From Roseovarius nanhaiticus (GTDB lineage: Bacteria > Pseudomonadota > Alphaproteobacteria > Rhodobacterales > Rhodobacteraceae), in NCBI RefSeq assembly GCF_900156535.1, contig NZ_FTNV01000002.1:1-64000 (forward strand): a stretch of 64,000 bases of DNA. Direction: 5' to 3'. Shown here one piece after another: positions 38,364 to 57,700 of this stretch. The translations under genes were made by a program, and so were the position numbers. The notes beneath the pieces were generated by a model, which saw nothing but the letters and a program-made list of their open reading frames with translations, searched no databases and was not told the DNA's origin. The number at the start of each line of letters is the position of its first letter. The first letter of the stretch is position 1.

Positions 38364-41300
38364 ATGGATATCCTCCAGATCCGCGGCGAAAACATCGCCA
38401 GCCTCGCGCGCCCTTTCGACATCAGCCTTGATGCGCCACCACTCGACGGTGCGGGCCTTTTCGCGATCACCGGCCAGACCGGCTCCGGCAAGTCCAGCCT
38501 CTTGGATGCCATGTGCCTCGCGCTTTATGGCGAATGCCCCCGACTAAGCAGCGCTGGCGTCAGCGACACGGTGCCCGATATCAGCGGCGAGGCGCTGGCC
38601 TCATCGGATCCGCGCACACTTCTCAGGCGCGGCGCCGCGGCGTCAGGTTATGCTATCGTCCGGTTCCGCGCGCGCAGCGGCGAGGATTATGAGGCGAGCT
38701 GGTCCGTGCGGCGCGCCTATGGCAAGGCGTCGGCCCGCCTTCAGGCGGTGGAGCGCAGCGTCACGCGCCTCTCGGACGGCACGGTTCTTGAGAACCAGAA
38801 GACAGCCGTCAATGACCGGATCGTTACCCTGACGGGCCTCACCTATGACGAATTCCGCCGCTCGGTACTATTGGCGCAAGGCGATTTCGACAGCTTCCTC
38901 AGCGCGCGCACGTCCGAGCGGGCGGCGATCCTCGAAAAGGTGACGGGAACGCAGCTTTACCGCGATATCTCGAAACGCGTCTTTGCCGCGCATGGCGAGG
39001 CCGAGCGCGCGGTCGAAGACCTGGAGATGAAGCTAGGCGAGCACAGCGTGCTGACTGAGGAGGAGCGCGCCGATATCGAGGCCGAGCTGACCGCGCTGGA
39101 CACCGCCCGGCGCGAAGCCGCCGAGGTGCTAAAGGCGACGATCCGCGATATCGACCGGCACGAGGCGCTGATCGCCGCACGGACCCGCAGCATCGAGGCC
39201 GCCGAGACCGAAGCCCGCGCGCGCGCCAACTGGGAGGCCCGCAAAGACGACACCGCAGAGCTGGCCCGCCTGCGCCGCGCCGCCCGCATTCGCGCCGAAG
39301 AGGCCGAGCGACGCGCCGCCGCCGAGGCCAAGGACTTGGCCGAGACAGCCATCGATGAGGCCGCGCGCGCCGTGGACGCCGCGCGCGCCGTCAAGGATAC
39401 CGCCGAGGCAGACTGGACCAAGGCCAGCGCCGCGCAGCAACAAAGCGAGGCGCGCTTTGCCGAATTGGGTCCGATTTGGACCCGCGCCACCACGCTCGAC
39501 GCGGAAATAAAGCGCGCCGCCGAGGAAGAGGCCACCGCCGCCCGAGCGGCCGAGGAGGCCGGCGCCGAGGCTGCCGAAGCCAAAAACGCGCTGGAGCGCG
39601 GCGAGGCCGATCTAACCCAGCGCGCTGCCCGCATCACGGACTTGCAAGCCGCCGGCGACGCCGACGCCGAGGGTGATGCGCTGGTCGCGGGTTGGCCGAT
39701 CCTCAGCGACCGGCTGGAGCGGCGCATCGCCGCCAGCCACGCTGGCGCCAAGGCCCTTGAGGAGGTGCAGCGCCTGAAAGCGGGCCTCGCTGGCGCCGCC
39801 GAGCGCAGCGCGCAGATCACGGAGGCGACCTTCGAGGCACGCGCCGAAAGCGCCCGGATCGAGGAGGGCCGCACCGCCCGAACGCCCCGCCGGGACGCGC
39901 TGCGCAAGGCCGCCCCGTCCGAGCGTTTGACCCGCCTCGCGCGCAGCCGCGACACCCTCCGCACGCTGGCCGATCTGGCGCGGCAGCATGACGAGGCGGC
40001 GCGCGACGCCGCGACGTGCGCACGGGACGAGGCGACCGCCGCAGAGACGATCCATAGCAGCGAGGCCGCGAAAACCGCCGCCGAGCAGGCACAAGGCCGC
40101 GCCACCGCGCAGATCGAGGCGCTGGAGGCGCCCGCCGGTCTGGCCGAGGCGGCGCTGTCGTCCGAGGCGGCGCGCCTGCGCCTGCATCTGGTGGACGGCC
40201 AGCCCTGCCCGGTCTGCAACGCGGTCGAGCACCCCGTGCATGAGGATGACGCGGCGCGCCAGCTGGCGGACGATTTGCGCAGCCGCCTTGGCGCCGCCCG
40301 CACCGCCGCGCGCGAGGCAGCCCAAGAGATCGCGGCCGCGACTGCGCGCATCGGCGCAGCGCAGAGCCTTGCCCAGACGTCGGCGGAGCGGCGCGTGGAT
40401 ACCGAGGCGCGGCAGGCCCGACTTGCGGCCGAGTTCCATGAGGCGCGCAGGGCCGAGGCTGAAGGCCCGCTGGGTGGCACCCTGCCGGACACACCGCAAG
40501 ATGCCGGGCCGGCTTTGGAGCAACTGGCGCAACGGTTGGATGGCTGGCAGAAAAGCCTCGAGGCGGATCTGGCCGAGCTGGAGGATCTGGACAGACGCGC
40601 GCAGGAAGACGAGGCGCGCATCGCGGCGCTGGCCGCGAGCATGCGCGCCCTGCAGGACGAGCAAGCGGGCCTCGATGCGCAGAACAAATCCGCCGAACGC
40701 GCCTTGGGTACGGCGCAAAGCGCCGCAGCCGCGCAGGCCGAAACCGTCGCCGACCTCGACCGCATGCTGGAGCGCGACTTCGCCGGGCTCCGCCTCGATT
40801 GGGCGCAATTCGGCGCGGATGGCGCGGATGCGCTCGATGCGGTCAGCACACGAAAGGAGGCCCATTCAAAGGCACGTGCCGCGCTGGAGGCGGCACTGGC
40901 CGAGCGCGATGAGGCCAAGCGCCGGCAAGAGACGCTGGAGGTCGGCCACAGCGCTGCGCAAACCGCATGGGAGAAAGCCCGCGCCGCGCATGATGTCCGC
41001 GCCGACAAGACGAAGGCCCTGCGCGCCGAGCGCGCGCCATTGCTGGGCGGAGAGGACACATCCGCCCACCGGACATACTTCAACACCCGACGCAAGGCAT
41101 TGCAAGAGCAGGAAAAAACGGCAAACGAGGCGCGCAGCGCGGCGGCATCCAAACTGTCGAGCGCAGAGGCGTCTTTGAAAGCCGCACAGGACACGCGGGA
41201 TCGCGCGGTTGCGCGTAGTGCAGCGGCGGAGGCCGCTTGGCAAGGCGCACTGGCGCAGGCCGGGCTGGACGCTGAAACCGCGCAGGCGCTGCTGGGGTGG

Positions 41301-42098
41301 AGCGACCCGGATATCGCCGCGCTGGAGACCGCCATCGACACCGCCCGAACCGCGCATCTGCGCGCCGCCGAGGCGCGCGATCAACGCGCCTCCGACCTTG
41401 CCAAGCTGGAGGCCGAAGGCGTTCCCGAAACGCCCCTGCCCGAGCTGCAAGCGCGGCGCATTGCCCAAGAGGCCGCGCAGACGCAGCGCATCGAGGACGA
41501 AGCAGGCCTGCGCGGACGCCTCAAATCGGACCGGGACACGCGCGCGAAAATGGCCGCACTGGTCGCGCAAATCGCCAAGGCCAAGGCGCGGCTGGACACG
41601 CTGGCCGCGATCAACGCGGCCATCGGCTCGGCCAGTGGCGATCGTTTCTCGACCATCGCGCAGGAGGTGACGCTGGCCATTCTGGTCGAGCAGGCCAACC
41701 ACCACCTTACCGATATCAAGCCGCGCTATCGGCTGGCGCGCGGTCAGGGCAAGCTGTCGCTCCATGTGGTGGATGACGACATGGCGGGCGAAATCCGCTC
41801 GACCCGCAGCCTGTCGGGGGGCGAGCGGTTCCTCGTGTCGCTGGCCTTGGCGCTGGCGCTGGGTGCGGTCGGCGGCACCGGGACGATTTCGAACACGCTT
41901 TTCATCGACGAGGGCTTCGGCACGCTCGATGCAGGCAGCCTCGACATGGCGATCGACGCGCTCGAAGCGCTGCAGGCGCAGGGCCGCACCATCGGCGTCA
42001 TCAGCCACGTGCAGGCGATGCAGGACCGCATTCCGGTGCAGATCCGCATCAAATCCCGCGGCGCGGGTGCAAGCGAAGTGGTGCTGGACGCGGGCTGA
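38364..42098 (+). CDS. sbcC: Exonuclease subunit SbcC
   Basis: This 1244-residue Rad50-type SMC-like ATPase has Walker A AITGQTGSGKSSLLDAM near residue 33, very long Ala/Glu/Arg-rich coiled coils, and a zinc hook CPVC (C615 and C618). The C-terminal ABC signature LSGGERFLVSLALALALG and Walker B TLFIDEGFGTLD follow. The skewed coiled-coil composition produces very long open frames on the opposite strand that are not genes. It is a partner of SbcD and ends three bases before the convergent gene at 42102. Confidence 0.96.
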   Translation: MDILQIRGENIASLARPFDISLDAPPLDGAGLFAITGQTGSGKSSLLDAMCLALYGECPRLSSAGVSDTVPDISGEALASSDPRTLLRRGAAASGYAIVRFRARSGEDYEASWSVRRAYGKASARLQAVERSVTRLSDGTVLENQKTAVNDRIVTLTGLTYDEFRRSVLLAQGDFDSFLSARTSERAAILEKVTGTQLYRDISKRVFAAHGEAERAVEDLEMKLGEHSVLTEEERADIEAELTALDTARREAAEVLKATIRDIDRHEALIAARTRSIEAAETEARARANWEARKDDTAELARLRRAARIRAEEAERRAAAEAKDLAETAIDEAARAVDAARAVKDTAEADWTKASAAQQQSEARFAELGPIWTRATTLDAEIKRAAEEEATAARAAEEAGAEAAEAKNALERGEADLTQRAARITDLQAAGDADAEGDALVAGWPILSDRLERRIAASHAGAKALEEVQRLKAGLAGAAERSAQITEATFEARAESARIEEGRTARTPRRDALRKAAPSERLTRLARSRDTLRTLADLARQHDEAARDAATCARDEATAAETIHSSEAAKTAAEQAQGRATAQIEALEAPAGLAEAALSSEAARLRLHLVDGQPCPVCNAVEHPVHEDDAARQLADDLRSRLGAARTAAREAAQEIAAATARIGAAQSLAQTSAERRVDTEARQARLAAEFHEARRAEAEGPLGGTLPDTPQDAGPALEQLAQRLDGWQKSLEADLAELEDLDRRAQEDEARIAALAASMRALQDEQAGLDAQNKSAERALGTAQSAAAAQAETVADLDRMLERDFAGLRLDWAQFGADGADALDAVSTRKEAHSKARAALEAALAERDEAKRRQETLEVGHSAAQTAWEKARAAHDVRADKTKALRAERAPLLGGEDTSAHRTYFNTRRKALQEQEKTANEARSAAASKLSSAEASLKAAQDTRDRAVARSAAAEAAWQGALAQAGLDAETAQALLGWSDPDIAALETAIDTARTAHLRAAEARDQRASDLAKLEAEGVPETPLPELQARRIAQEAAQTQRIEDEAGLRGRLKSDRDTRAKMAALVAQIAKAKARLDTLAAINAAIGSASGDRFSTIAQEVTLAILVEQANHHLTDIKPRYRLARGQGKLSLHVVDDDMAGEIRSTRSLSGGERFLVSLALALALGAVGGTGTISNTLFIDEGFGTLDAGSLDMAIDALEALQAQGRTIGVISHVQAMQDRIPVQIRIKSRGAGASEVVLDAG

Positions 42099-42101
42099 GA
42101 G

Positions 42102-44081
42102 TTACCTTTCCTCCGCCAGCCACAGCCATGAGCCGTCGGCAAGCCCGCGCTCCAGCGCAGTCAGCAATGCGCCATGTGCCTTGATCGCATCGCACCTGCC
42201 GGCCTGTGCCGCGTCCAGCGCTGCGCGCACATCTTCGCGCGGCGTCTCGTCTGCACTGCGCGAGACGGCGAAGCGAAAGTAATCGCAGCCAGAGCCGGAG
42301 AGCGGCGCATTGATGTTGTCCGCGGCGCTGGCCGGCTCCTGCCCCGTGGGGGGCGCAAAGCGCGCAAGATGGTTCAGCGCATCAAGGCGCGCCTGAATTC
42401 CGTCCCGCAGCATGGGCGCACGCCAGTCCCGAACGGGCGTGGGCGCGCCCGCGGGCCGGCCCGGCGCCAGAACGTTGGGCGCAAACTCGGCGCGTTGCAT
42501 GGGGCCGAAGCGTGTGATGCGCGTCGGGCTATAGGCATGCCGGGCCTCGGCGCGCGGAAAAGCGAGGGCCAGCGTCAGCGGACGGGTCGCATCGACCCGA
42601 AAATCACGCCAGATGCGCGGCTGCTGAACCTCGCCCCGAATGCCGTGGATCACCTGCAGGCGGTCCAGGACCGGATCGACGCCGTTCCAGTCAAACCGCG
42701 CGGCGGGCGTCAGGCGCCGGGTTTTGCCGTTCCAGATCACGCTCCACTCGCTGATCGGCAAGGCGGCGGCATCACCCGAGGGGATCGCGGTGCCCGGCCC
42801 GGTCATGCCGCTGGCCATAGGCGCAAAGATGGTGAATGCGCCTTCCTCGTAAAGGATGTGCAGATGCGGGAAGATCCACTCTTCCTTGCACCCGCTCGGC
42901 GACAGCCGCGTGCCGGGCAAGACCAGATCGGGCACCGACCCCATGGGCAATGCGCTCGGCGCGCAGCGCGAGGCGGTCAAGTCGTAATCGATGGGCAGCA
43001 CCGCCGCCATCTCGCAAAACCGCGCGCCGGGCGGGCGGGCGCCGCCGGGCGGGATCACGGCGCATTCCTGCACCGCCTCGATACGGCGCGGCGCGCGCGC
43101 ATGCCCGCGCGCGGCATCCCAGATCATGCGCGCGCTGCGGCCGAATGCGAATTCCGCGACCGGGCCGATCACGGCCTCCTCGGGCCGGCTGCTGCGCTGG
43201 TCCTGATGCAGGAGCGTGACCTTCCCTCCCAGCACCGGAAATCCTGTTTCGGTATCAGGCGGTTGGCGCAGTCCCACGCCGGTCGGCGCCACTCCGTTCA
43301 ACTCGTAGCGCAGATTCAGCACCGAATAGGCAGCACTGCCGAGGGCGGATTCCTCTGACCTGAGCCGTGCATACTCGGGGTCGCTCCGGTCGTCGGGATC
43401 GAGGCCACGCGCCTCGGCATAGGCCATGCTCGCCGCTGTCGCCTCCTGATGGAGGGCCGCCGCCTTTTCATGGGCGGTGTCGATTGCCTGATCGAGGTGG
43501 CGCAGGATGAACGCATCCGCATCGCCCACGCTCGCGCTATCGCGGCCCGGATCGAAAAGCGCGTCCAGATCCGCCGCCGCCGCCGTCAGCCCGTCGCCCA
43601 GCAGATCATAGGCCACTGCCCGCCGGCTCATCATGTAGAGTATCGAGCCGGCCCGGCCCGGCACGTCACCGATGCGAAACGCCTCGGCACGCGCGGCGGC
43701 CTCCGCGATGTCATCGCTGATGCGGCGCTGCATTTCGGCGCGGTCGATCCGGCCCAGCGACCACAGCCATGGCTGCGCCTCGCTCAGATCGCCGAAGTCC
43801 ATGCCGGTCCGCCCCGCATCACCGGAAGGGGCGGCCAGCACATCCAGATAGCTGAGCGGCGTCCGGATCGGCGGCACCTCGCGCCCCGTCAGCCGCATGG
43901 ATGGCAAGAACGCCTCGCAGGCAATGATGAACGCGGCCGCCCCCGCCCATAGGGACGCGCGGCGCCATGTGGGCCACTCGCGCTTGGCCCGCGGGGCGCG
44001 CTGCGCAGCCGCCGCGCGGCGCGTCCAGACCCGCCACATCAGGATCAGCATGCCAATCAGAAAACCGAGGACCAATCCCAT
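42102..44081 (-). CDS. Membrane-anchored protein of unknown function in Hsp70 operon
   Basis: This 659-residue protein has two N-terminal membrane helices (GLVLGFLIGMLILMWRVW and ASLWAGAAAFIIACEAFL) separated by a basic Arg-rich loop. The rest is a large Pro/Ala-rich soluble domain of about 580 residues that I do not recognise. Topology suggests N-in, with the long C-terminal part on the cytosolic or periplasmic side depending on the loop. It starts one base after the stop of the J-like gene and is the third gene of the hscC unit. Function is unknown; context suggests a client, scaffold or anchor for the chaperone pair. Confidence 0.75.
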   Translation of the reverse strand: MGLVLGFLIGMLILMWRVWTRRAAAAQRAPRAKREWPTWRRASLWAGAAAFIIACEAFLPSMRLTGREVPPIRTPLSYLDVLAAPSGDAGRTGMDFGDLSEAQPWLWSLGRIDRAEMQRRISDDIAEAAARAEAFRIGDVPGRAGSILYMMSRRAVAYDLLGDGLTAAAADLDALFDPGRDSASVGDADAFILRHLDQAIDTAHEKAAALHQEATAASMAYAEARGLDPDDRSDPEYARLRSEESALGSAAYSVLNLRYELNGVAPTGVGLRQPPDTETGFPVLGGKVTLLHQDQRSSRPEEAVIGPVAEFAFGRSARMIWDAARGHARAPRRIEAVQECAVIPPGGARPPGARFCEMAAVLPIDYDLTASRCAPSALPMGSVPDLVLPGTRLSPSGCKEEWIFPHLHILYEEGAFTIFAPMASGMTGPGTAIPSGDAAALPISEWSVIWNGKTRRLTPAARFDWNGVDPVLDRLQVIHGIRGEVQQPRIWRDFRVDATRPLTLALAFPRAEARHAYSPTRITRFGPMQRAEFAPNVLAPGRPAGAPTPVRDWRAPMLRDGIQARLDALNHLARFAPPTGQEPASAADNINAPLSGSGCDYFRFAVSRSADETPREDVRAALDAAQAGRCDAIKAHGALLTALERGLADGSWLWLAEER

Positions 44082-44082
44082 G

Positions 44083-45384
44083 TCAGACCACCAGGCGCCA
44101 CAGGATCTGGGCGGCGCGGTAGCCCAGATAGGCGATCAGCAGGTTGCGCGGATCGCGGAATGTCCAGGCCCAGAGATTGTATTTCGAGGGCGGCTGCGGC
44201 GCCGGAACATGGGCCGCAGCCGCGACCTCGCGGAACTGGGGCGTGTCGCTACCGATGCGGATGTCGCGGGCCAGAACCTTGTGCAGCCACTCGTATTGCT
44301 GGCGCTGCCACATCTGCCGCCCAAATTGGTGGCTCCAGCCGAAATGCGTATCAAGAAGCCGCGCCAACTGTGGCCGCCACCAAGCGGGATAGACGGGATG
44401 CTTGGCCTCGCTCTGCCAGCCGGTGGCGGCGCAGATATGCTGGCGCAGGCGGGCGTCCAGATCCTGAAACTCATCGAGCGCCTGCAGCTCTTCGCGGTTC
44501 AGGATCGCGCGCACCACGTCGATCATGTCCCACATGTTACGGTCGAACGCCGCCTGAAGATCCTCCATCGCGCGGCTCACCGGCGAGCGGTCGACCCAGC
44601 GCCGTGCCTGCCGGTCATAGTAGGAGCCGTGCGCGTCGCCGCGCGCGGCGGTCTCCTCGCGCTCGATCATCGCGTCGATATCGGCCGGCGCGGGCAGCGC
44701 CTCGGCGGCGTCCGGTGCCTCTTGCAGCATCTCGCGGACAGCGTTGAAATCCCGCCCGCGCCAGGCGTCGGAAGGCCGCCAACGCAAGAGGCCCAGATCA
44801 TCGCGCAGGACGGCGGCCACTTCGGGCGTCAGCCAGTCTGGCGGGTCAGTCGGCAGCGGCTGCCATAAGGGGGTGCTGTGGCGCGTCTCTTCGGGGTCCG
44901 CAGCGCAGGCTATGAAGGTGAGCACGTCGGCCCGGAAGGCCGCGCCATCGACGCCGCCCGCGATCAGCGCCTCGCTCGCCTCGGCGGCGAAGGCGCGCGG
45001 TTCCGGCCCCCCGGCCAGCATCCAGCGGATCGTCTTTTCGATCAAAATGCCGGTGGGGCTGTCGCTGAAATTCCATTTCAGCGCGGGGTCGTAGTACCAT
45101 TTGACCTCGGCAGCGGGTGCGGGTGGCTGAGGCGCGGGCGGGGTATCAACCGCAGCCGGATCCTCGCCTTCGTCCTGCTGGGCCTGCGCCTCGGCGCGCC
45201 GCGCGTCGGAGCCTTTCGCGATGCGCCGCGCCGCGTCGAAATTCTGCCGCAGCGCCATGAAGGCGGCGCGGTCATCCTCGGGACGCGTGACCTTGAGCAG
45301 ACGCGCGTAGGCCGCCTTGACATCGGCCTCGGTCGCATTGCTGCGCTTCAGCCCCAGCGCCTTGAAGGGATCAGTCGAAGACAC
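44083..45384 (-). CDS. J-domain-like protein lacking HPD, DjlB/DjlC-type
   Basis: This 433-residue protein has an N-terminal J-like fold ([47 protein letters not shown], split here as helices I-III over residues 6-55). The HPD triad that stimulates Hsp70 is replaced by R34-P35-E36. A Pro/Gln/Ala linker and a long helical domain with many Trp follow. The C-terminus has a membrane-type helix ([20 protein letters not shown]). The arrangement resembles E. coli DjlB/DjlC, the partners of HscC. It overlaps hscC by 14 bases. Confidence 0.78.
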
Positions 45385-47074
45385 CGGCGCTTTCCAGCGA
45401 TTTCAGAGCATCCGCCGTGCGGTCCCGCGTCTGGGCGATGTGCCGTTTGTCATGGGTCGCCAACGCCGCGTGGAACGAGCTGAGCAGCATGCCGATCTGG
45501 TTGCGCCGCTGGCCCAGCGCGTTCTCATAGGCCGCCGTCAGGCGGCTGATCATCGCCTCGTTCACCGCCTCGTCGCGCGGGTGGATCTTGATTTTCTCCA
45601 GCTCCTTGAAGCGTTTGGCAATGGCCTCGGGGCTCATCGCGCCGGGCGAATTCTCGATGATCAGCGTCTTGGCGACGCCGGTGGACAGCGTGGTGGCCAG
45701 CACCTCCAGAACGCCCGAACTGTCATAGGTGAAGCGCACGTCCACCTTCTCATGCTCGGTCATGTTCGAAGGCAGAGACACGTTGTAGGACCCGATGCGG
45801 ATGTTGTCGCGCACATAGGGCGCCTCGCCCTGATAGATGTTCAGCGTGATGCGCGTCTGGCCCAGCTGCACGGTCTCGACCTCCTGGCTGCGGCTGGCCG
45901 GGATGGTGGTGTTTCGCTCGATCAGGGGCACGAAGATGCCGGTCTCGTGCTGATCCCCCGGCCCGGTGCGGCGCGAGGATTCGAAGCCCAGCGTGAAAGG
46001 GCAGACATCCGTCATCACCACGTCGTCCAGCGCCTTGTCCCGCGCGATCAGCCCCGCCTGCACGCCCGCGCCCAGCGCGACCACCGTGTCGGGGTCAAGC
46101 GCGTGTTCCGGGAACCGCTTGAAAAGGCGCGTGATCAGGCTGCGCACCGGGGCCATCCGCGTGGCCCCGCCCACCAGCACGATACGGTCGATATCGCCTG
46201 CCGTCAGGTTTGCGTCGCCGATGGCGCGTTGCAGAGGCACCTTCATCCGCGCGGTCAGATCCTCGGTCAGCGTCTCGAAAAGATCACGCGACAGGCTCAG
46301 CTCGCGCTCTTCCTCGCCATGGCGATAGATGACGCTGGCGCGCGGCTCGTCCGAGAGGCGATGCTTGGCCAGATCGGCCAGCGCGCGCAGACGCGACAGA
46401 TCCTGCGGACCGAGCGCATCCATCTTGGTGCCCAGCTGCTCGGCGAAATGGGCGGCGATGCGGTCGGTGAAATCCTCGCCGCCCAGAAAGGCGTCCCCCG
46501 CCGAGGAGCGGACCTCCATCACGCCCGAGAACATCTCGAGGATCGACACGTCAAACGTGCCGCCTCCCAGATCGACGATCAGAAAGGTATTCTCGGCCTC
46601 CTTGTCTTGCAGGCCATAGGCCAGGGCGGCTGCCGTCGGCTCGTTGATCAGGCGGCGCACCTTGAGGCCCGCGAGGGTGGCGGCGTGGATCGTCGCCTTG
46701 CGCTGGATCTCGTTGAAATAGGCGGGGACGGAGATGACCGCCTCTGTCACCGTCTCGCCCAGATAGGCCTCGGCATCGGTCTTGAGCGTGCGCAACACCA
46801 TGCTGGACAGATCCTCGGGCGTGTAATCCTTGCCCTTGAGGCGCGTCACCTTGTCGGTGCCCATCAGCCGCTTGAACCGCGCGGCGGTCGCGTCCGGTCG
46901 GTTGATCAGGTGATCGCGCGCCGAGGCGCCTACGATCAGCGCGCTCGCCTCGTCCATGTGGACCGCCGAGGGCGTCAGGGAAGAGCCCAGCGCGTTCGGT
47001 ATCAGCACGGCGCCGTCATCGGTAAAGACCGAGACCAATGAATTGGTCGTGCCCAGATCGATTCCAATGATCAT
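45371..47074 (-). CDS. hscC: HscC-type Hsp70 chaperone
   Basis: This 567-residue protein is a short Hsp70. The ATPase domain starts [17 protein letters not shown] and holds [13 protein letters not shown], the connect and phosphate loops [15 protein letters not shown] and [14 protein letters not shown], and [13 protein letters not shown]. The substrate-binding domain is shortened, as in HscC rather than DnaK ([12 protein letters not shown] region). ATG 47074 is chosen because MIIGIDLG is the family start. It is followed by a J-like gene with a 14-base overlap. HscC proteins are specialised stress chaperones whose clients are largely unknown. Confidence 0.9.
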
Positions 47075-47261
47075 CGCGCCTGCCCTGCTCTTGCGTGAAT
47101 TTCTGAGTATATCCGGCGCGCCCGCCGCACAACGGCAAAGGATCGCGCTTTGCGCGGCGCCCAAAGGCGTTGAATATCGCCTTCTGCGCGGTAAGGTCGT
47201 TTAAGCTGTGCATGTCGCAGCCCCCGGAATACCCCCACCCCCTTGCGATAAGGCCCCGACC

Positions 47262-56114: not shown

Positions 56115-57236
56115 TCAAGGCGTCCGGCGGAGCGTCGCGCGCTCCCGCGCGAGCCATAATAGCGACAGGATCAGCGGCCCGTTATCGGCCTCACCCGTTT
56201 CGATAAGACGCATTGCATCCGCAAAACCTATCAGATGAATGCGGATATCCTCGGCTTCGGACGCAAGCCCGCCAAGGCGCGGCAAGTCGTCCGGCAGATC
56301 GGCAAGACCCACGAAATTGTGAAAATATTCCGTGGAGTAGCCGGGTGTGCAGTAATAGCTGGCAATCGGCTCCAGCGCGCTGAGGGCGATACCCGCCTCC
56401 TCCTCGCACTCACGGCGCGCGGCCTCCTCGGGCGTCTCGCCGGCGTCGATGCGGCCCGCCACCGGCTCCAACATCCAAGGGCGCGGATCGCCCCGGCCAT
56501 AGGCGCCCATGCGAAACTGCTCGACCATCAGCACACGGTCCCGGACCGGATCATAGGGAAGCACCATGACGGCGTCGGTGGCCACCACCATCTCGCGGCG
56601 CACTTGCTGATCCGCGCCGGACGCAAACGTCGGATGGCGCAGGCGTTGCGTCTCGAACCGGTAGAAGCCGATATGGTTTACCTCGGTCTCCAGCGTCTCT
56701 ACGGCGCGGCTGGGCGTGTCGCTGCGGATCCGCGCAGGCACGCCCTCTGCCGCCGACAGCCGGGCCGACGCCCGCGCACGGATCATCGGCATCCGCGCGG
56801 CGAGCGTGTCGGCGTCAAGGCGCCCCAAGTAACCCATCGCCTCCTGCGCGGCGGTACGGCTGAGCGCACCATGCCGGTCCTGCCAATCGCCTAGATCAAA
56901 GGGCGCGCCGGGCGGCACAGCGCCCGGGCGCGGGAAATAAACGCGCGCGGGTCGAGGCATGCCCGCGTGATCCCGCACCTCCACCGGGGCCAGATCGTAG
57001 CCAAAGCCACCCTCATAGAAATCGAGCCGCGCAAGCAGCGCAGCATCAGGCGCGTTCAACAACAACCCCGGCGCCGCCGCGCCTGACTGATTGACGATTG
57101 TGGGATAGATCTGTCCCTCGGCCCAGAATACCGCGTGATCGGGCAGTATCGCCTGGATCACCGGCGCTTCGGCGCCCAGCACGATGTTCCGCAATTCGGT
57201 GTCACGAAGTGTGCCGTAGAGAAAGATATCCTCCAC
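56115..57236 (-). CDS. trgB: TrgB: GGCT-like domain fused to Nudix hydrolase
   Basis: This 373-residue protein has two domains. Residues 1-150 or so are gamma-glutamylcyclotransferase-like (IFLYGTLRDTELRNIVLG, LDFYEGGFGYDLAPV). The C-terminal half is an ADP-ribose pyrophosphatase-type Nudix domain with the box GRIDAGETPEEAARRECEEEAG. TrgB of Rhodobacter sphaeroides has the same fusion. GTG 57236 (MEDIFLYGTL) fits the family start and leaves 5 bases after trgA; a longer start at 57284 is possible. The second gene of trgA-trgB-cysK. Confidence 0.9.
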   Translation of the reverse strand: MEDIFLYGTLRDTELRNIVLGAEAPVIQAILPDHAVFWAEGQIYPTIVNQSGAAAPGLLLNAPDAALLARLDFYEGGFGYDLAPVEVRDHAGMPRPARVYFPRPGAVPPGAPFDLGDWQDRHGALSRTAAQEAMGYLGRLDADTLAARMPMIRARASARLSAAEGVPARIRSDTPSRAVETLETEVNHIGFYRFETQRLRHPTFASGADQQVRREMVVATDAVMVLPYDPVRDRVLMVEQFRMGAYGRGDPRPWMLEPVAGRIDAGETPEEAARRECEEEAGIALSALEPIASYYCTPGYSTEYFHNFVGLADLPDDLPRLGGLASEAEDIRIHLIGFADAMRLIETGEADNGPLILSLLWLARERATLRRTP

Positions 57237-57241
57237 CCGGC

Positions 57242-57700
57242 TCAGCTCCAGCGTCTTGACGCTGCCTCCGCCAGAACACCGCACAGCATCCCGCCGATCA
57301 ACAGAACGCCGATCAGCATCGGGTCGATCAGATATTGGGCATAATCCACGGCATTGTCGAAAATGCCGATAATCGCCTCGGCGGGGCCATCATACCGATT
57401 TTCCATGGACTGCTTGAGCATCAGATTGAGGCTTTGCAGGAAAAAGGCCCAGATGATCAGCGCCAGGACCCCGGTCAAACCATTGGCCAGCGCGTCGACC
57501 ATGCCGCGCCCCGCCCGGCTCCCAATCACGATCCAGCCGCAAAGAAGGCCCAGCACCGCATTGACGTAATTGAACCAGCCAAAGGCAGTGCCCTCGGGCA
57601 TAAGGGGGCGCACCAGATCAGAGGCAAACCAGCCCAGCGCACCCAGCGACAGGGCCGCGACAAGGCGGGCGGCGGTGGGCAAGGTACGCGTGGCGGGCAT
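57242..57700 (-). CDS. trgA: TrgA family membrane protein
   Basis: This 152-residue inner-membrane protein has four hydrophobic helices (AARLVAALSLGALGWFASDLV, YVNAVLGLLCGWIVIGSRAG, GLTGVLALIIWAFFLQSL, PMLIGVLLIGGMLCGVLAE). It matches the TrgA family, found upstream of trgB in Rhodobacteraceae and tied to tellurite resistance. The mechanism is not known. It starts 3 bases after the cfa stop and ends 5 bases before trgB. Confidence 0.9.
   Translation of the reverse strand: MPATRTLPTAARLVAALSLGALGWFASDLVRPLMPEGTAFGWFNYVNAVLGLLCGWIVIGSRAGRGMVDALANGLTGVLALIIWAFFLQSLNLMLKQSMENRYDGPAEAIIGIFDNAVDYAQYLIDPMLIGVLLIGGMLCGVLAEAASRRWS

Follow-up and report, generated by a model that had tools for sequence, protein, structure and literature searches.

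In a 64,000-nucleotide stretch of the Roseovarius nanhaiticus genome (hereafter the window), we describe a minus-strand row of three genes that hints at a chaperone unit linking the cell interior with the periplasm. The row runs from hscC through a J-domain protein gene to a gene for a membrane protein that we call P3, spans 42102..47074, and recurs in the same tight order in 5 of 54 other hscC loci that we fetched, giving six loci with the window's own. The reading to which we give about even chances is that the genes encode a membrane Hsp70 unit of the HscC/DjlC type, in which P3 would be an added subunit, docking the J protein and presenting a domain to the periplasm. A co-inherited partner with a probable periplasmic part would offer a handle on the membrane role of HscC.

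The three-gene locus

The first gene, hscC (45371..47074), encodes an HscC-type Hsp70 of 567 amino acids (P0001), the second (44083..45384, with a GTG start) a 433-residue protein (P0002) with a profile match to solved J domains, and the third (42102..44081) the 659-residue P3 (P0003). These genes and all features placed within them below lie on the minus strand. hscC and the J gene overlap by 14 bases, and a single base separates the J gene from P3; the tightly packed row reported in an earlier note on this DNA is therefore as described. A convergent gene (38364-42098) finishes 3 bases away from the P3 end of the unit and is preceded by a calcineurin-like phosphoesterase gene; a divergent gene lies at 47208 on the hscC side. 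We take the convergent gene to be sbcC and the divergent one to encode an oxidoreductase. Our search for sigma-70-like promoters between 41900 and 47400 returned none against 0.7 expected, and no clear upstream motif common to the loci was found. The neighbouring oxidoreductase was matched in 41 of 60 genomes of the genus. None of the 29 relatives' oxidoreductase loci returned, each with 1.5 kb on either side, held an sbcC tail, so the insertion site is unreadable.

Elsewhere in the window, a 794-residue open frame (38957-41341, minus strand) lies antisense to a 1244-residue gene and is probably an effect of high GC content with no gene behind it. A single minus-strand frame at 56115-57284 fuses GGACT-like and NUDIX domains.

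Spread of the unit across hscC loci

The 54 loci came from a scan of genome contigs with peptides of the window's HscC, which biases the set toward relatives of that protein and leaves E. coli out. In 53 of them a J domain starts close to where the HscC match stops, no more than 10 bases ahead of that point and no more than 85 bases past it; the remaining locus (L065) has no J domain beside hscC. P3 homologs stand as the third gene in Pseudooceanicola spongiae (L015), Tateyamaria (L016), Amylibacter (L017 and L029), and a Hyphomicrobiales metagenome-assembled genome (L018), at 18-32% identity to the window's P3. The J gene starts inside the end of hscC in all six loci, and P3 begins anywhere from a 20-base overlap with the J gene to a 1-base gap after it. 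In a tree of 55 HscC rows, from which L065 and L066 were left out, the HscCs of these six loci form one clade (support 100/97), so the loci do not count as six separate events. The upstream neighbours that could be named (3 of 9 neighbour proteins) differ: an Ada-like protein in L015, a CehA/McbA-like protein in L016, and an oxidoreductase in L029.

A profile built from the six P3s found no further P3 in the 54 hscC loci, although in three of the 49 loci without P3 (L020, L037, and L039) the sequence stops within the J gene or directly behind it, which makes them uninformative. The profile matched one gene in each of the five homolog genomes, none in the genome of L044, and none beyond the two already known in 33 genomes of the L017 genus. 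Among 394 family genomes, where scoring covered no more than three candidates per genome and misses are possible, it matched the window's own genome alone. Searching the same 394 genomes under the same limit with the single P3 sequence gave the own genome and one brief match over the membrane segments, broken by an internal stop and not confirmed by the profile. In 100 relatives (40 of the class and 60 of the genus, the own genome among the 60), it hit the own genome only. No P3 was found in plasmids or in a P3-queried scan of the genome contigs. The same collection yielded five P3 homologs by way of HscC, so single-P3 scans miss distant P3s. As far as these searches reach, we reject the idea of P3 as a widespread family. 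The conserved neighbourhood that the earlier note had called for is present in these five fetched loci. The note would have been refuted by a membrane protein occurring mostly away from hscC; within the searches made, full P3 matches stood only beside hscC, which favours the note.

Three loci labelled Acidobacteria (L030, L031, and L033) have hscC inside the Hyphomonas clade of the tree, and the J protein of a fourth so labelled (L066) groups with that clade; all four are probably misbinned. In Pseudorhodobacter ferrugineus (L068:8001-9488), hscC looks broken, with no full open frame and a long branch, and the J gene is open.

HscC

The window's HscC matches Pfam HSP70 (E 1.4e-135), and shares 43% identity with E. 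coli HscC and 39% with the DnaK of its own genome. That genome encodes this single DnaK at another site and contains one more short match resembling Hsp70. PADLOC gave one weak match (E 0.0019). HscC-type Hsp70s are described as having a length of 550-580 residues, a deletion corresponding to DnaK residues 76-101, a small deletion in the loop with DnaK D211, and, in the substrate-binding domain, 4-8 extra residues in loop L1,2 (PMC8215388). Each of these hallmarks is found here: the protein has 567 residues, has in common with E. coli HscC a 24-residue gap at DnaK 76-101, and carries after the linker an L1,2 insertion of 10 residues relative to its own DnaK (4 in E. coli HscC). The two HscCs also have in common a 3-residue gap in what we take to be the D211 loop. 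Likewise, we take HscC R141, Q339, and P392 to correspond to DnaK R167, Q378, and P419, all three of which are kept in the alignment. According to a review, these DnaK residues contact Asp35 and Pro34 of DnaJ (PMC8215388). The interdomain linker, placed by alignment with the own DnaK and E. coli HscC, reads VVMTD (residues 352-356; 46007..46021), whereas the own DnaK has VLLLD. HscC is rare, with matches at E <= 1e-140 in only 6 of 394 family genomes, the own genome counted.

The J protein

Like J proteins of the DjlB/DjlC type, the window's J protein has an N-terminal J domain (residues 1-70; 45175..45384), which aligns to other J domains and for which the model gives helices at 19-30 and 39-70. 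At the place of the HPD motif, sequence and alignment read RPE (residues 34-36; 45277..45285). Relative to HPD, the change from His to Arg is not conservative, and that from Asp to Glu is. The earlier note had pointed out that this J protein lacks HPD. The RPE is real, but the loss of HPD is not special to this locus: neither HPD nor HPE occurs in any of 55 J domains adjoining hscC, comprising 54 from 53 loci (L028 has two) and the window's own. The window's J protein therefore belongs to a wider HscC-linked trait. RPE is found in 20 of these domains and RPD in 9; most of the others are DQ, DR, or N forms. An acidic residue occupies the third loop position in 37 of 55, with alignment gaps counted against, and helix II (AYA..LK) is conserved.

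By this alignment, the HPD-less loop is a trait of HscC-linked J proteins and goes further than the printed case of E. coli, where DjlB and DjlC both read HPE. Replacing the H or the D of HPD abolished stimulation in the systems tested (PMC8215388, PMC13254874), and a remark in a 2026 review names HPE as apparently the sole tolerated replacement (PMC13254874). The 55 domains run against that remark and make it testable with purified HscC/J pairs. At two Mesorhizobium loci (L019 and L020), the loop reads NIN, without His, Pro, or Asp at the HPD positions. L028 (2080-4239) has tandem J genes after hscC, both with RPE, the first with a hydrophobic tail and the second with a weaker one.

The J domain is followed by two copies of a middle domain, at residues 96-228 (44701..45099) and 252-376 (44257..44631), which match each other by hhalign at E 1.6e-10 and probability 96.9. 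Copy 2 is the part common to shorter J proteins, and the J proteins of all six P3 loci have the duplicated middle domain. In a structural comparison with VIA-align, the middle domain reached only middling Z scores, with helical proteins.

The chain closes with a modelled helix (residues 412-432; 44089..44151) that would make a marginal membrane helix, with a hydrophobicity of 1.34 and with Arg423, Gln426, and Arg430 in it. Across the J proteins of the six P3 loci, tail hydrophobicity is 0.82-1.46 in five and 1.85 in L018, compared with at least 1.5 in 19 of the 20 other J tails in alignment A4. An Arg at the centre of the tail (positions 9-11 of the tail window) is present in 6 of 6 P3-locus J proteins vs. 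1 of the 20 others. Such a weakly hydrophobic, Arg-bearing tail reads as one that needs a membrane partner, and a Glu in a P3 membrane segment (below) would be a candidate. We downgraded the idea that P3 loci have an Arg-Glu membrane pair of their own because 13 of the 20 other tails, all without P3, have an Arg somewhere in the tail window, one of them central. These fall into six Ponticaulis-type tails with Arg at positions 4-11 and seven Hyphomonas-type tails with Arg at 14-17.

P3

P3 matched nothing in Pfam, NCBIfam, PADLOC, or PHROGs; when all six members were compared with Pfam, two single weak matches appeared (best E 0.055), and the P3 profile gave no significant match to PDB structures (best E 0.84). 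The suggestion that P3 lies outside known families thus holds in those four collections and among solved structures. A first predicted membrane segment (residues 1-19; 44025..44081; hydrophobicity 1.97) is present in five of the six members, being weak (1.43) in L015 and lacking in L016. The second (residues 44-62; 43896..43952) is present in all six and includes the invariant Glu56, four residues before the invariant Pro60. Net charge is greater before this segment than after it in five of six members and equal (1 and 1) in L015. From this charge excess, the large C-terminal part of P3 should lie, and probably does lie, in the periplasm. That part contains six cysteines in five of the six members and eight in L018, and five cysteine columns are invariant across all six.

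The structure prediction that the earlier note proposed gave a poor model (mean pLDDT 50.5, pTM 0.33) that suggests long helices and a strand-rich region. The putative helical region (~104-272; 43266..43772) comes from this low-confidence model, with pLDDT of 64-88 in blocks within 111-260, except 141-150. The putative strand-rich region (~290-491; 42609..43214) draws on both alignment and model and includes the invariant Cys340, 356, 373, and 398. BAR-like helical matches from a fold search were discarded, given TM-scores near 0.1 and the poor model.

Relation to known systems

The closest known system is that of E. coli, whose HscC-type Hsp70 is linked to two J proteins, DjlB and DjlC, that also depart from HPD and that carry a membrane helix at the C-terminus, where the window's J protein has a marginal one. 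DjlC, which inserts into the plasma membrane, stimulates HscC; hscC mutants show cadmium and UV phenotypes, and cadmium sensitivity arises when either hscC alone or djlB together with djlC is lost (PMC8215388). HscC overproduction lowers sigma-70 activity, and E. coli HscC is reported to bind the housekeeping sigma factor (PMC3861889). The window's J protein differs from the E. coli pair in reading RPE in place of HPE and in its middle part, which is unlike theirs (18-19% identity over alignment A3). The E. coli hscC neighbourhood has DUF1266 genes and a Sel1 protein but no P3, so the third partner does stand outside the known HscC/DjlB/DjlC set, as had been claimed. The broader claim of a novel HscC unit with two anchored partners is partly supported: P3 is new to the set, but its recruiting of Hsp70, or even its binding to the J protein, is an inference, and a membrane-inserted HscC partner was already published in DjlC (PMC8215388). 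At the level of titles and the starts of abstracts, the literature searches gave no description of a third gene in hscC units.

Two other systems are partly alike. In HscA-HscB-IscU, a specialised Hsp70 with a J protein of its own serves one dedicated client (PMC8215388), although HscA is a separate Hsp70 type and P3 is a membrane protein unlike IscU, to which no family match ties it. Pam18/Pam16 are membrane-bound J proteins that place mtHsp70 at a membrane complex, and Pam16 also lacks HPD (PMC13254874); that arrangement works alike in part, and we claim no membership in it. By contrast, the window locus has no second J protein, and within our searches P3 matched no translocase subunit.

What the unit may do

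In the reading that we favour, the three genes would form one inner-membrane chaperone unit. HscC would be its cytosolic Hsp70, and the J protein, with its J domain, two helical-domain copies, and C-terminal membrane helix, a dedicated co-chaperone that carries HscC to the membrane. The altered loop would have to work with the acidic residue kept and the histidine not. A P3 membrane helix would touch the J protein at its polar tail helix, leaving the large cysteine-bearing part of P3 in the periplasm, where an event such as a ligand, a metal, or a damaged envelope protein could be coupled to the ATP cycle of HscC in the cytosol. Alternatively, HscC may act on membrane proteins gathered by P3. 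The sequences directly show the gene order and how it is conserved, the J domain, the hallmarks of HscC, the restriction of P3 to a single HscC clade, and the Glu, Cys, and central tail Arg kept in all six loci. From these we infer the topology, the J-P3 contact, the ATPase stimulation, the signal, and the clients. An unlikely variant makes this a transmembrane signalling unit in which P3 would sense the periplasm (redox, metal, or envelope damage) with a disulfide-bearing domain and switch HscC through polar helix contacts with the J protein; the targets of HscC could then be membrane proteins or the housekeeping sigma factor that the E. coli protein is reported to bind (PMC3861889).

The main alternative, possible but somewhat doubtful, is that P3 is a dedicated client with an unrelated envelope job, whose insertion, folding, or assembly depends on help from the other two proteins, much as IscU is served by HscA/HscB. 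A chaperone encoded with its one client would give equally strict gene linkage, Hsp70s with few clients are known in HscA (PMC8215388), and P3 is large, cysteine-bearing, and membrane-crossing. However, the extra copy of the J protein's middle domain and the polar tail within the same clade suit a standing partner better than a passing client, and the L039 J protein itself has 391 residues after its transmembrane segments. At least 46 hscC loci keep hscC and the J gene without P3, so HscC needs no P3-like client in general. A further reading makes P3 a bystander whose envelope role has nothing to do with HscC, caught downstream of the operon in the clade ancestor and retained because it shares the promoter. 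Its association with one HscC clade, when 49 other loci (three of them uninformative) are without it, would fit such an origin, but retention in 6 of 6 clade members from several genera, down to 18% identity and always within a 20-base overlap to a 1-base gap after the J gene, makes this highly improbable.

Doubt may also be turned on the J protein, which, having neither the His nor the Asp, could be a pseudo-J protein (type IV) that holds or restrains HscC at the membrane and does not stimulate it. This would agree with the loss of stimulation on H or D replacement in the systems tested (PMC8215388, PMC13254874) and with the lack of HPD and HPE in all 55 J domains. Yet a defective J gene would not stay beside hscC in 53 of 54 loci, helix II is conserved, and the third loop position is acidic in 37 of 55. 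HscC keeps its counterparts of DnaK R167, Q378, and P419, and E. coli DjlC stimulates HscC with an HPE loop (PMC8215388). We therefore regard a J protein that only holds or restrains HscC as quite unlikely.

Parallel arrangements

Other HscC loci show arrangements that resemble the P3 unit in outline, with transmembrane (TM) segments predicted from hydrophobicity. L044, L039, and L047 form another HscC clade (support 100/100). In L044, a J protein with one predicted TM segment is followed 19 bases later by a third gene encoding two TM segments and a long C-terminal part; in L039, a single J protein has three predicted TM segments ahead of its 391-residue end. Homology of the L044 third protein to P3 was not supported (hhalign E 0.24), and searching 394 family genomes with it turned up a single weak match, short and interrupted by two stops. 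It is at best weakly alike to the L039 end (hhalign E 0.11), which in turn has no detectable relation to P3. The J proteins of L058, L059, and L062 have 253-269 residues after the last TM segment and are mutually related there, and that of L042 has 180, whereas among the 54 J proteins classed from the loci, 40 stop no more than 60 residues past the last TM segment. By these predictions, HscC-linked J proteins seem to have been joined to a large portion across the membrane on more than one occasion. In Bradyrhizobium macuxiense (L041:9722-11446), the HscC-linked J protein has Sel1 repeats and no predicted TM segment; a Sel1-repeat gene, ybeT, lies near hscC in E. coli too.
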